64,000 bases of DNA, from contig NZ_CP019082.1 in NCBI RefSeq assembly GCF_001956985.1, positions 7,130,001-7,194,000 on the forward strand, in the 5' to 3' direction. The position numbers and the translations under genes were made by a program. The notes beneath the pieces are model-generated. The model searched no databases, was not told where the DNA came from, and was given only the letters and a program-made list of their open reading frames with translations. The DNA is from Paludisphaera borealis (lineage in GTDB: Bacteria > Planctomycetota > Planctomycetia > Isosphaerales > Isosphaeraceae). Of this stretch, positions 7,318 to 14,717 are shown one piece after another; position 1 is the first letter of the stretch, and the number at the start of each line of letters is the position of its first letter.

Positions 7318-8280
7318 ATGGTGTGTACTCATCTCCGTCGTCGCGCGGGTTTCACGCTCATCGAGTTGCTGGTGGTCATCGCGATCATCGCGGTGCTGAT
7401 CGCCTTGCTGTTGCCGGCGGTGCAGTCGGCCCGCGAGGCCGCCCGGCGCATCCAGTGCACGAACAACCTCAAGCAGATCGGCCTGGCCTGCCATAATTAC
7501 CACGAGTCGCGCGGGGCGTTGCCCGGAGCCGATATGGTGTTCAATAAGACCGAGTTGTCGGCGCTCAGCATGCTGCTGCCGATGATGGAGCAGACCAACG
7601 CCTACAACTCGATCAACTTCGACTTCGGCTACAACGACCCCAACAACACGACGGCGATGTTCACGGTCGTGAGCGGGTTCGTCTGCCCTTCGGACCAGAG
7701 CGATCCCCTGCCGGCCCTGGGTGGCCAGACCAACTACATGGCCGACATGGGGAGCGGGATCGTCTGGCAGGAGTCGATCGGCGGCAACGCCGGCCTGCCG
7801 GTCCCCAACGGCATCTTCCACGGCAACAGCGCGACACGGTTCGCGGCGATCACCGACGGCCTCTCGAACACCGGCATGTTCGCCGAGCGCGTCATGGCCG
7901 ACGGCAACACTGCTCAGGTCAGCCCCGTGTCCGACGTCTTCTTCTCGCCCCTGGCCCCGACGACCGTCGACCAGGCGTATCAGATGTGTCAGGCCGTCGA
8001 CATCACCAACCTCCAGAACCAGTTCCCGCTGTTCATGGGAGCGCCCTGGCTGTGCGGGCAGCACATCTTCCAGCACATCAGTCCGCCGAACGGCCGCTCG
8101 TGCGGGTTCTTCGTCGCCCTTCGCGCCACGATGCCCCCCAGCAGCTTCCACCCCGGCGGCGTGAATCTGCTGCTGGCCGACGGCTCGGTTCGGTTCGTCA
8201 AGAACACCATCGACCTCGCGACGTGGCGGGCGCTCGGGACGATGGGCGGCGGCGAAGTGATCAGCAGCGACAGCTACTAA
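7318..8280 (+). CDS. DUF1559 prepilin-like protein
   Basis: This 320-residue protein belongs to the DUF1559 family, greatly expanded in planctomycetes. The N-terminus carries a type IV pilin-like methylation/cleavage motif ([17 protein letters not shown], residues 11-26), after which a prepilin peptidase would cut. The hydrophobic helix and [20 protein letters not shown] follow. The C-terminal family signature is [19 protein letters not shown]. The substrate-binding or structural role in the envelope is not established. An AGGAG ribosome site precedes the ATG. A lipoprotein gene follows after 34 bases, an arrangement often seen in this phylum. Confidence 0.95.
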
Positions 8281-8314: not shown

Positions 8315-8716
8315 ATGTTATTCGATCTCAGATCCCGCCGGTCCGCGTGCGGCGCGTTGGCGATGCTCGTCGCCCTGTCGGTCGCCGGCTGCTCCGGCGG
8401 CGTCGCGAACCCCGTCGACCCGGACCGCGCCCGGGTCGCGCTCAAGTCGGCCCTCGACCACTGGAAAAGCGGCGGCGATCCGCTGTCGATGCCCACGTCG
8501 GCCACCCCCATGACCGTCCAGGACCTGGAGTGGCAGTCGGGGGCCAAGCTGGTCGATTACGAAGTCCTCGGCGACGGCGAGCCAGCCGACGCCAACCTCC
8601 GCGTCAAGGTGAAGCTCACCCTGGCGGGCAAGGGCAAGAACGCCGAGAAGACCGTCAACTACCTGGTCACCACCAGCCCCGCCGTCACGGTCTTCCGCGA
8701 CGCCATGAGGCGCTGA
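8315..8716 (+). CDS. Small predicted lipoprotein
   Basis: This is a 133-residue protein with a lipoprotein signal peptide: a basic start, the hydrophobic stretch ACGALAMLVALSV, and the lipobox VAGC, with the modified cysteine at about residue 26. The mature part is a small alpha/beta domain (DRARVALKSALDHWKSGG, then beta-rich VKVKLTLAGKG). It closely follows a DUF1559 gene and is probably co-transcribed with it. Function unknown; such lipoproteins recur beside DUF1559 genes. Confidence 0.85.
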   Translation: MLFDLRSRRSACGALAMLVALSVAGCSGGVANPVDPDRARVALKSALDHWKSGGDPLSMPTSATPMTVQDLEWQSGAKLVDYEVLGDGEPADANLRVKVKLTLAGKGKNAEKTVNYLVTTSPAVTVFRDAMRR

Positions 8717-8787
8717 CGTACAGCCGCGTTCGTCTCGATCGATTCTCGGGTCCGCCGATTCCCATTCACGATCAAAGGATTCTGGAA

Positions 8788-10017
8788 ATGCACATGCGAA
8801 CCTTCTTGCGAGCCGTCGCGTCCGCGGCGGCCTGTTGCGGCCTCGGCGTCGGCCTCGCGTCGGCCGAAGAGCCGCGCAATCCCCAAAGCCGGCCCACGGA
8901 GGACGTCGGCAAGGCGTTGCGCGAGGCCTGGCCCGATCGACCGGAATGGCTCGACATGTACACGGCCATCCTCAGCGACGAGCCGATGGGAGCGACCAAC
9001 GGCTGGTTCCGAACCGCCGTGACCCAGTCGCGGTACGGCTGGGACGCGACCCGCAAGAAGTTCGACCGCGACGGCGACGGCAAGGTCGGCCGCGACGAGT
9101 ACCCCGGCGGCGAGGACGCGTTCGCCCGCCTCGACCGCGACCACGACAAGAGCTTGAGCGCCGCCGATTTCGACTTCTCCAACGCCTACGCCCCCTCCCC
9201 CGGCTCGATGCTGTTTTCGAAGCTCGATCGCGACGGCAGCGGCAAGGTCACCAAGGTGGAGATCGAGGCGTTCTTCAAGGCGGCCGACGCCGACGACGCC
9301 GGCTTCCTCTCGCGCCTCGAACTCGAACAGGCGCTCCCCATGCCTTCGATGTCGATGTCGTCCGGCGACCGACCGAGCAAGACCCAGTTGATCCGCGGCC
9401 TGTTCAAGCAGGAGGTCGGTTCGCTTCAGCCCGGTCCCAAGCTCGACGAGTCGGCCCCGGATTTCACGCTCAAGACCAACGACGGCAAGTCCGAGTTGAC
9501 CCTCTCCAAGCTGATCGGCCCCAAGCCGGTCGTCCTGATTTTCGGCAACTTCACCTGCGGTCCGTTCCGCAGTCAGTCCGGCAATTTCGAGAAGCTCTAC
9601 CGCCGCTACGGCGACCAGGCGACGTTCGTGATGGTCTACGTCCGCGAGGCCCATCCCACCGACGGCTGGCGGATGCAGAGTAACGAACGGGTGGGCGTCG
9701 CGACCGCGCAGCCCCAGACTTACGACGAACGCGCCATCGTCGCCCTGCGCTGCGGCAAGCTGCTCGATCTCGGCTTCCCGATGCTCGTCGACACCATCGA
9801 CGACGCCGTCGGGGCTCGGTACAGCGGCATGCCGGGCCGGTTCTACCTGATCGACAAGGCCGGCAAGATCGCCTTCAAGAACGCGCGCGGCCCGTTCGGC
9901 TTCAAACCCGCCGAACTCGAACAGGCCCTGATCCTGCTCCTCCAGGAAGAAGGCGCCCCCGCCAACCGCCAGGCGAACGCCACCGAGACCGCGCCCCCCG
10001 CTCGACCGGCCCGTTGA
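8788..10017 (+). CDS. Exported EF-hand / iodothyronine-deiodinase-like thioredoxin-fold protein
   Basis: This is a 409-residue exported protein with a signal peptide at about residues 1-26. EF-hand-type calcium loops follow: DRDGDGKVGRDE (93-104), DRDHDKSLSAAD (116-127) and DRDGSGKVTKVE (147-158), plus a degenerate fourth (DADDAGFLSRLE, 167-178). The C-terminal domain (about 215-385) is a thioredoxin fold of the deiodinase type. IFGNFTCGPFR places Cys257 where animal deiodinases carry selenocysteine, and YVREAHPTDGW (284-294) matches the deiodinase EAHxSDGW motif. The likely role is thiol redox or reductive dehalogenation in the periplasm; the substrate is unknown. It follows the lipoprotein gene by 71 bases. 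Confidence 0.88.
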   Translation: MHMRTFLRAVASAAACCGLGVGLASAEEPRNPQSRPTEDVGKALREAWPDRPEWLDMYTAILSDEPMGATNGWFRTAVTQSRYGWDATRKKFDRDGDGKVGRDEYPGGEDAFARLDRDHDKSLSAADFDFSNAYAPSPGSMLFSKLDRDGSGKVTKVEIEAFFKAADADDAGFLSRLELEQALPMPSMSMSSGDRPSKTQLIRGLFKQEVGSLQPGPKLDESAPDFTLKTNDGKSELTLSKLIGPKPVVLIFGNFTCGPFRSQSGNFEKLYRRYGDQATFVMVYVREAHPTDGWRMQSNERVGVATAQPQTYDERAIVALRCGKLLDLGFPMLVDTIDDAVGARYSGMPGRFYLIDKAGKIAFKNARGPFGFKPAELEQALILLLQEEGAPANRQANATETAPPARPAR

Positions 10018-13028: not shown

Positions 13029-14717
13029 GTGGCGAAGATCTTGGCATACGATGAAGAGGCCCGCCAAAAGCTGGCTAGCGGCGTCGGCAAGCTGGCCCGG
13101 GCGGTCCGCAGCACGCTGGGCCCGCGCGGCCGGAACGCCGTCATCGACAAGGGCTGGGGAAGCCCGACGGTGACCAAGGACGGCGTGTCGGTCGCCGAGG
13201 AGATCGAGCTGACCGACCCGTACGAGAACATGGGCGCGCAGCTCGTCAAGGAAGCGGCCTCGAAGACGTCGGACGCCGCGGGCGACGGCACGACGACGGC
13301 CACCGTGCTGGCCGAAGCGATCTTCAAGGAAGGTCTCAAGGCCCTGGCCGCCGGCGCCGACCCGATGGCGCTGAAGCGAGGGATTGACAAGGCCGTCGCG
13401 GTCGTCGTCGAGAAGGTCAAGTCGCAGGCCAAGAAGGTCAACGGCAAGAAGGAGATCGCCGAAGTCGCCGCGATCGCCGCCAACAACGACAAGTCGATCG
13501 GCGAGAAGCTGGCCGACGCGTTCGAGAAGGTCGGCACCGACGGCGTGATCACCGTCGAGGAAGCCAAGGGCTTCGAGACGACCGTCGACGTGGTTGAGGG
13601 CATGCAGTTCGACCGCGGCTTCCTGAGCCCGCACTTCGTCACCGACCAGGACCGGATGGAAGTCGTCCTCGAAGACGCCTACATCCTGATCCACGAAGAG
13701 AAGATCTCCTCCCCCACCAAGCTGATCCCGCTGCTCGAGAAGATCGCCAAGGCTAACAAGCCGCTGGTGATCATCGCCGAGGACATTGAGGGCGAGGCGC
13801 TGGCGACCCTGGTGGTCAACAAGCTCCGCGGCATCCTCAAGATCGCCGCCGTCAAGGCGCCGGGCTACGGCGACCGCCGCAAGGCCATGCTCGAAGACAT
13901 CGCCGTCCTGACCGGCGGCAAGGCCGTCTTCAAGGACCTCGGCATCGAGCTCGATGGCGTCCAGCTCTCCGACCTGGGCCGCGCCCGCAAGATCACGATC
14001 AGCAGCGAGAACACCACGATCGTCGAAGGCGCCGGCTCGTCCGAGGCCATCAAGGGCCGCGCGGATTCGATCCGCCGCGAGATCGGCACGACCGACAGCG
14101 AGTACGACAAGGAGAAGCTCCAGGAGCGTCTCGCCAAGCTCGCCGGCGGCATCGCCCAGATCAACGTCGGCGCCGCGACCGAGACCGAGATGAAAGAGCG
14201 CAAGGCGCTGGTTGAAGACGCCCTGCACGCCACCCGCGCGGCCATCGAAGAAGGCGTCGTCCCCGGCGGCGGCTCCGCCCTGATCCGGGCGGCGAAGGCG
14301 CTCGACGGCCTCAAGCTCGAAGGCGACGAACAGTTCGGCGTCGACATCATCCGTCGCGCCGCCGAGCAGCCGGCCCGGTACATCGCCGAGAACGCCGGCA
14401 TCGACGGCGCCGTCGTCGTCAACCGCATCAAGAAGAACGACGACCCCAAGTTCGGCTACAACGCCGAGAACAACACCTTCGGCGACATGCTCGAAGCCGG
14501 CATCGTCGACCCGACCAAGGTCACCCGCACGGCGCTCCAGAACGCCGCCTCCGTCGCCGGCCTCCTGCTCACCACCGAGGCCATGATCGCCGAGCCGCCG
14601 AAGAAGAAAGACGCCGGCGGTGATCATCACGATCATCACGGCGGCGGCATGGAAGGCATGGGCGGGATGGGTGGCATGGGCGGAATGGGTGGCATGGGCG
14701 GAATGGGGATGATGTGA
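13029..14717 (+). CDS. groEL: Chaperonin GroEL, copy 1 (His- and GGM-rich tail)
   Basis: This is a 562-residue 60-kDa chaperonin subunit starting at GTG. It has the ATP-binding stretches [18 protein letters not shown] and [24 protein letters not shown], the apical hinge region, and the late [20 protein letters not shown]. The end is unusual: after EPPKKKD comes a histidine cluster (DHHDHHGGG) and then GGM repeats closing in GMM. Flexible GGM tails inside the ring cavity are normal, but the His cluster is not. It differs clearly from copy 2 at 15190 in the equatorial and apical domains. A stem-loop follows before groES. Confidence 0.97.

Follow-up and report, generated by a model that had tools for sequence, protein, structure and literature searches.

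A protein of Paludisphaera borealis that joins EF-hands to a deiodinase-family domain, and its candidate AhpD/sestrin-like partner

The planctomycete Paludisphaera borealis encodes a protein in which EF-hand loops are followed, within a single frame, by a deiodinase-family domain with cysteine at the position of the deiodinase selenocysteine. Its gene is found in a stretch of 64,000 nucleotides (NZ_CP019082.1, positions 7,130,001 to 7,194,000 of the forward strand), here termed the window. The family to which it belongs is already catalogued as NF038285, a hypothetical equivalog. New are planctomycete relatives with TGA at the cysteine codon, a second cysteine about 65 residues further on, and an AhpD-like partner. 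The interpretation that we prefer, and hold with middling confidence, is that of an exported, calcium-binding, two-cysteine peroxiredoxin-like reductase that would be recycled by the AhpD/sestrin-like partner. Coordinates of all features are collected in Table 1.

Table 1. Location of the features discussed. Plain numbers are positions in the window; others follow the name of a locus (L) or contig (C1).
Feature	Position	Strand	Basis
EF-hand/deiodinase-family protein, 409 aa	8788..10017	+	NCBIfam NF038285, Pfam PF00837
AAAGGA, ribosome-binding-site-like, 8 bases 5′ of the ATG	8774..8779	+	Read from sequence
Probable signal peptide, residues 1-26, MHMRTFLRAVASAAACCGLGVGLASA followed by EEP, cut after ASA	8788..8865	+	N-terminus read by eye
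EF-hand loop 1, DRDGDGKVGRDE, canonical	9064..9099	+	Sequence, Pfam
EF-hand loop 2, DRDHDKSLSAAD, near-canonical (Lys at position 6, Asp at 12)	9133..9168	+	Sequence, Pfam
EF-hand loop 3, DRDGSGKVTKVE, canonical	9226..9261	+	Sequence, Pfam
EF-hand loop 4, DADDAGFLSRLE, degenerate (Ala at position 5)	9286..9321	+	Sequence
T4_deiodinase domain, residues 190-380, thioredoxin fold	9355..9927	+	Pfam; AlphaFold2 model
FGNFTCGPFR	9541..9570	+	Sequence
Cys257 codon TGC, occupied by Sec in DIO and by TGA in bacterial relatives	9556..9558	+	Sequence, alignment
YVREAHPTDGW, start of deiodinase-specific insertion (Tyr284, Glu287, His289, Trp294)	9637..9669	+	Sequence, alignment
Cys322 codon, putative resolving cysteine	9751..9753	+	Alignment; role inferred
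Arg367, aligns with Dio3 Arg275	9886..9888	+	Alignment
TGA codons of L100	L100:6267-6269 and 7593-7595		
Two adjacent partner genes (CPYC, CNYC), window's genome	within C1:2862312-2865057; L182:4280-7178		
SelA and SelB, close together, window's genome	C1:4038554-4041810		
tRNA-Sec, window's genome	C1:7008587-7008681		

The reading frame extends from an ATG at 8788 to a stop ending at 10017. A preliminary description of this DNA proposed a fusion of three clear calcium loops with a deiodinase-like domain in an exported protein, and the fusion is borne out: EF-hand loops and then the T4_deiodinase domain occupy one frame of 409 amino acids. Two loops are canonical and one is near-canonical, and these three have Asp, Asn or Ser at positions 1, 3 and 5 and Glu or Asp at position 12. 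Pfam also recognizes the region (EF-hand_6 4.3e-12, EF-hand_7 2.2e-11). Calcium binding is predicted from these loops. Most relatives having that region keep the ligand positions of loops 1 to 3 (50-row alignment). Export is probable, as the N-terminus reads as a likely signal peptide.

PF00837 (T4_deiodinase) matches the window protein at 6.6e-24 and 84.9 bits (cut-off 27), and competing Pfam matches are lower (AhpC-TSA 1.9e-8, 34.7 bits; Redoxin 26.7 bits). The NCBIfam model NF038285, ‘deiodinase family protein’, scores 515.7 bits (cut-off 250) over residues 48-388, and thus covers the EF-hand region as well; its record carries no function, no Sec/Cys history and no partner. The likeness to animal deiodinases pointed out earlier is upheld by both sequence and fold, mouse DIO2 and DIO3 being the best matches in each. 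A phmmer search of the PDB gives DIO3 at 8.7e-18 and DIO2 at 4.5e-15, far above chance, and a profile of 50 relatives gives Dio3 at 3.1e-41 and Dio2 at 1.6e-36. With an AlphaFold2 model (pLDDT 90.1, pTM 0.85), the best Foldseek matches are mouse Dio3 and Dio2, and VIA Z scores are 18.5 for Dio2, 18.1 for Dio3 and 15.5 for the next structure. Thiol-disulfide oxidoreductases and the 1-Cys peroxiredoxin AhpE come after the deiodinases in VIA, at about 15.

Like DIO2 and DIO3 (PDB 9h48, 4tr3), the window protein has a thioredoxin fold with the DIO insertion, whose start, Y-x-x-E-A-H-P-x-D-G-W, aligns with mouse DIO2/3, and it keeps the active-site Thr, Tyr, Glu, His and Trp. It differs from them in having Cys for Sec, an extra Cys322 and N-terminal EF-hands. 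That cysteine occupies the selenocysteine position, as initially described, is evident from the TGC at 9556 and from the lack of an in-frame TGA anywhere in the gene. The proton relay proposed for Dio2 consists, in the accessible part of the source, of Ser127, Thr129, Tyr157, Glu160, His162 and His182 (PMC11592359). Measured against this relay, the window protein keeps Thr256, Tyr284, Glu287 and His289, each found in 62/62 Cys rows of one alignment, but has Asn254 for Ser127 and Pro309 for His182. The motif EAHxxDG is seen C-terminal to the active site in 136 of 140 family rows and in none of 20 redoxins from the same genome, a count that is not independent because the family rows were partly collected using such a motif; a looser pattern, Y-x-x-E-x-H, is found in one of the 20.

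A second cysteine 58-72 residues past the catalytic residue is present in 138 of 140 family rows. In one alignment, a Cys stands at position 322 in 55/62 Cys rows and in 37/40 Sec rows, and its counterpart is Leu in both mouse deiodinases. The seven Cys rows that do not have the aligned residue count against a two-cysteine scheme, although most of them must carry a slightly shifted Cys, judging from the 138/140 count. In the AlphaFold2 model Cys322 is in helix 312-326, the helix after the insertion, and it is the equivalent helix that holds the resolving Cys in Tpx-type thiol peroxidases. Typical peroxiredoxins (AhpC/Prx) are characterized by an active-site motif PxxxTxxC; this is absent from the window protein, which reads FGNFTC with Asn at -3. 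Arg367 is Arg in 62/62 Cys rows and 18/40 Sec rows, and the equivalent Arg275 of Dio3 is proposed, in the text available from that source, to be a substrate clamp (PMC11592359).

The careful tree has 83 rows (34 Cys, 39 Sec, two mouse DIO and eight redoxins), thinned by identity and free of four long redoxins and a spurious frame that were removed. PF00837 rows and mouse DIO2/3 are split from the eight own-genome redoxins at 99/99, which speaks for the deiodinase link and against a place among AhpC/TlpA proteins, with program warnings about long branches joining at the redoxin root and about a bootstrap that is not fully settled. Kinship with animal deiodinases is supported; the position of the animal enzymes within the tree is not fixed because AU tests leave the root open (p 0.47, 0.49 and 0.35). 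Neither a constraint that keeps all bacterial rows together (p 0.47) nor one that forces Cys rows beside redoxins (p 0.35) is rejected. It should be pointed out that a planctomycete origin of animal deiodinases is unsupported, the animal enzymes grouping with one Sec row at 83/92.

These results also bear on whether the window protein might be a TlpA/ResA-like thiol-disulfide oxidoreductase or a repair factor for exported proteins, stabilized by calcium and with no small-molecule substrate. ResA and DsbE chains do come after the deiodinases in fold searches, and probable export would suit such a function. However, a TlpA/ResA-type CxxC is absent at the active site, which reads C257-G-P-F260, with Phe260 (three past Cys257) in 50/50 alignment rows, and the split from TlpA/AhpC-like redoxins of the same genome, with its long-branch warning, points the same way. 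We consider this alternative unlikely.

Within the family, 35 of 45 genomes have a PF00837 match; across the phylum, 118 of 392 sampled genomes do. Scanned genomes gave 384 relatives, and the best 80 of 384, which were kept, are all from planctomycetes save two labelled only ‘bacterium’. Among the matches listed, the closest relative is from Paludisphaera soli, with 78% identity in the best segment. Bacterial relatives of the same family, 42-46% identical to the window protein, have TGA at the Cys257 codon, and thus the Cys/Sec contrast is not limited to animals. Ten of the 45 family genomes have one TGA-bearing PF00837 match each, and all six loci examined from those ten carry the TGA precisely where the window gene has its Cys257 codon (FGSFT-TGA-GPF). 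Of the best-scoring 30 phylum loci, 27 have TGA at this codon and three have Cys. SelB is over the cut-off in 10/10 family genomes with a TGA copy and in 20/35 of the others; a tRNA-Sec match above 60 bits is present in nine of the ten, the tenth genome being 68% complete.

The 7.65-Mb genome that contains the window has SelA, SelB and tRNA-Sec, yet it has a Cys enzyme; loss of selenium use as the cause of the cysteine is therefore rejected for this genome. No selenoprotein was found in it among the deiodinase-like, AhpD-like and formate dehydrogenase families, and its best formate dehydrogenase family match has no in-frame TGA. Two in-frame TGA codons occur in a weak, formate-dehydrogenase-like match at C1:1544498-1545022. 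In four of five sampled genomes of the same genus, SelB over the cut-off and a tRNA-Sec match above 60 bits are both absent.

On the tree, Cys rows form one clade (97/87) within a 49-row clade of Cys and Sec rows (100/99), and one Sec/Cys change suffices. The Cys form in the window probably descends from a Sec form, the root not being secure. The changes in nature may be more numerous, since four Ser-keeping Cys forms are outside the trees. These four (L162, L163, L167 and L169) also lead to rejection of Asn254 as an obligatory companion of Cys. In the gathered rows, Asn254 is found in 91/92 Cys rows and Ser in 49/50 Sec rows, and the two exceptions (L087b2 and L098b2) resemble spurious frames. 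With respect to a SECIS, folding downstream of the codon is more stable in 44 Sec segments than in 74 Cys segments (mean -14.1 vs -10.2, p 1.8e-7, kinship uncorrected); compared with shuffles, the mean z is only -0.53 for Sec and +0.39 for Cys.

Some relatives run on into a second module of about 400 amino acids, in several of which Pfam detects a CMD domain, and many frames of the module read through a TGA in CFY-TGA-MGH, i.e. CxxU. Across 79 loci (the best 80 of 384 relatives minus L134, which has no row; many are cut by contig ends), the partner is fused in 13, is in the examined flank of up to about 5 kb in 20, and is not seen in 46. A flanking partner is on the same strand as the enzyme gene in 19 of the 20. 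Forty-eight of these loci, drawn from the same best 80 of 384, have at least 4.5 kb on both sides, and here the numbers are 7 fused, 11 nearby and 30 with none. Both genes are present in 25 of 45 family genomes (Fisher p 0.008, kinship uncorrected), and coordinate comparison places them on a shared contig within about 15 kb in 14 of the 25. They are unlinked in the other 11, the window's own genome included, and in 10 of the 35 enzyme-bearing family genomes a search for the partner at E 1e-40 finds nothing. The loci with no partner, the unlinked pairs and the genomes with no partner match all argue against a partner-recycled enzyme.

The partner motif is constant: 53/53 full-length matches, near-duplicates counted, have either CxYCMGH (41) or CxY-TGA-MGH (12), and the frame of one of the 53 (L088) contains a TAA at another site. 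Forty-five loci, near-duplicates included, have both motifs readable. A Sec enzyme is paired with a Sec partner in seven and with a Cys partner in none; a Cys enzyme is paired with a Cys partner in 30, a Sec partner in seven and a mixed one in one. In the open frames L100, L120 and L139, one in-frame TGA falls at the deiodinase site and another in the CFY-TGA-MGH of the AhpD module, and these frames are predicted to encode double-Sec fusion proteins. A TGA in the partner gene L179 (genome G028, of the same genus, with SelB below the cut-off) matches a Trp of its relative L173 and not the CxxC site. The two adjacent partner genes of the window's genome are 4.3 Mb from the window gene by contig coordinates, and when read by eye both have signal-peptide-like starts.

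A model of one of these two partner proteins (pLDDT 89.1, pTM 0.88) shows two AhpD-like helical halves, one with CxxC, as in sestrin/AhpD proteins. It superposes on human Sestrin2 (5dj4) over both halves, with Z 25.9, 294 residues, rmsd 3.2 and 11% identity. Single domains of AhpD (6e8l, 6k40) and of Bmp8 give Z 17 to 18, on the first half of the partner. Pfam CMD matches at 1.8e-10. In a profile search of the PDB, the first half finds CMD/AhpD proteins (1.2e-8 and weaker), and the best match of the CxxC half is the debrominase Bmp8 (4.9e-7). Sestrin is not found among the partner's 11 PDB sequence matches, and its kinship to the partner is thus structural only. Unlike Sestrin2, the partner is probably exported, is in many loci joined to a deiodinase-like enzyme or encoded close to one, and sometimes has CxxU.

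A thiol or selenol cycle is suggested by the linkage, by the partner's constant CxxC/CxxU and by the enzyme's second Cys. Cys257 would attack an electrophile, most likely a hydroperoxide, with the conserved Tyr284, Glu287 and His289 relaying a proton. Cys322 would then resolve the oxidized Cys257 as a disulfide, and the two-domain AhpD/sestrin-like CxxC protein, encoded elsewhere in the genome, would re-reduce the enzyme. A hydroperoxide is favoured because AhpD proteins are reductants of peroxiredoxins. Nevertheless, the preserved DIO insertion and the clamp-type Arg would fit a larger organic substrate equally well, and the Bmp8 match of the partner's CxxC half also speaks against a peroxide reductase.

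As the deiodinase insertion is preserved and the partner resembles Bmp8, reductive dehalogenation has to be weighed, and we regard it as possible but doubtful. Cys257 and Cys322 would strip iodine or bromine from an aromatic compound, and the partner would either recycle the enzyme or itself be a Bmp8-like debrominase. Deiodinases are nearest in both fold and sequence, and the relay residues and the insertion linked to thyronine binding are kept except for Ser to Asn and His to Pro. Work by Chekan et al. in 2019 is said to have found that Bmp8 shares its strategy with the thyroid deiodinase. In the portion available of one review, Bmp8 is described as a reductive debrominase for which a Cys disulfide has been proposed (PMC5577590). 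On the other hand, no halogenase is found among the four scanned neighbouring ORFs of the window, and the relay His182 of Dio2 is Pro in 62/62 Cys rows. Replacement of Sec by Cys lowers DIO activity about 1000-fold, as given in the accessible part of PMC11592359. Structurally, Bmp8 ties with ordinary AhpD (Z 17.2 vs 17 to 18), and superposes on the first half of the partner, not on the CxxC half. A broader form of this proposal is rather unlikely in our estimation: that planctomycetes use an extracytoplasmic EF-hand deiodinase-like enzyme with a sestrin-like AhpD/Bmp8-like partner (Sec or Cys, sometimes double-Sec) to dehalogenate natural organohalides, the window protein being a Cys-converted, unlinked version. 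If true, the deiodinase reaction would also exist in bacteria, in an exported form and apart from thyroid biology.

The EF-hands appear to be dispensable for the core chemistry, as EF-hand_6 matches 34 of 50 scanned family members, leaving 16 with no match, and EF-hand presence, scored by a loose pattern, switches three times across the tree. In the peroxiredoxin-like reductase that we prefer, their most likely task would be to stabilize the catalytic domain and hold it in place at the calcium concentrations of the extracellular space. Perhaps an EF-hand sensor turns catalysis on instead, as proposed for an EF-hand thioredoxin. A PDB profile search does find an EF-hand domain-containing thioredoxin, 5e37 (E 1.8e-10), and the conserved ligand positions of loops 1-3 are in keeping with a sensor. 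The members that have no EF-hand_6 match and the changes on the tree count against it. Extracytoplasmic calcium is usually high and steady, so that gating is less natural than structural binding, and we think calcium gating improbable. The entry 5e37, which we take to be an algal, calcium-regulated thioredoxin, also has EF-hands followed by a thioredoxin-fold domain, but the window protein belongs to PF00837 and is not a thioredoxin.

As early as 2005, bacterial deiodinase-like proteins were described in both Sec and Cys versions (PMC1088965), and the window protein resembles these in its PF00837 domain and the existence of both forms; the available text of that report has no mention of EF-hands, an AhpD-like partner or a double-Sec fusion. 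A 2026 review places such bacterial proteins among bioinformatic selenoproteins, with functions that, in the excerpt at hand, ‘remain largely ...’ (PMC13188914). Neither the EF-hand/deiodinase fusion nor the deiodinase/AhpD link was found among the matches listed in a search of literature titles and abstract starts in a limited library, and the double-Sec enzyme/partner arrangement was likewise not found among the matches listed in this same limited search. With a partner fused to it in certain species and encoded separately in others, the enzyme provides a concrete redox pair, which would help decide whether deiodinase chemistry comes from peroxide or organohalide reduction. It also places a sestrin-like fold beside a peroxiredoxin-like enzyme in bacteria.

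Directly upstream of the window gene is a small lipoprotein-like ORF (8315-8716) with no Pfam or NCBIfam match, and this is preceded by a prepilin-like H-X9-DG protein (7318-8280). Further downstream, at 13029-14717, is what we take to be a GroEL-like protein, with a C-terminal tail rich in His, Gly and Met. Clustering of recurring neighbours turned up mostly prepilin-like genes and frame shadows; its sole use here was to point to an ABC transporter found near a deiodinase-like gene (L068:9119-11789). The substrate-binding protein of this transporter is SsuA-like, scoring below the NCBIfam cut-off, and has a weaker likeness to SaoX; similar substrate-binding proteins are seen in L076, L078, L098, L100, L109 and L122.
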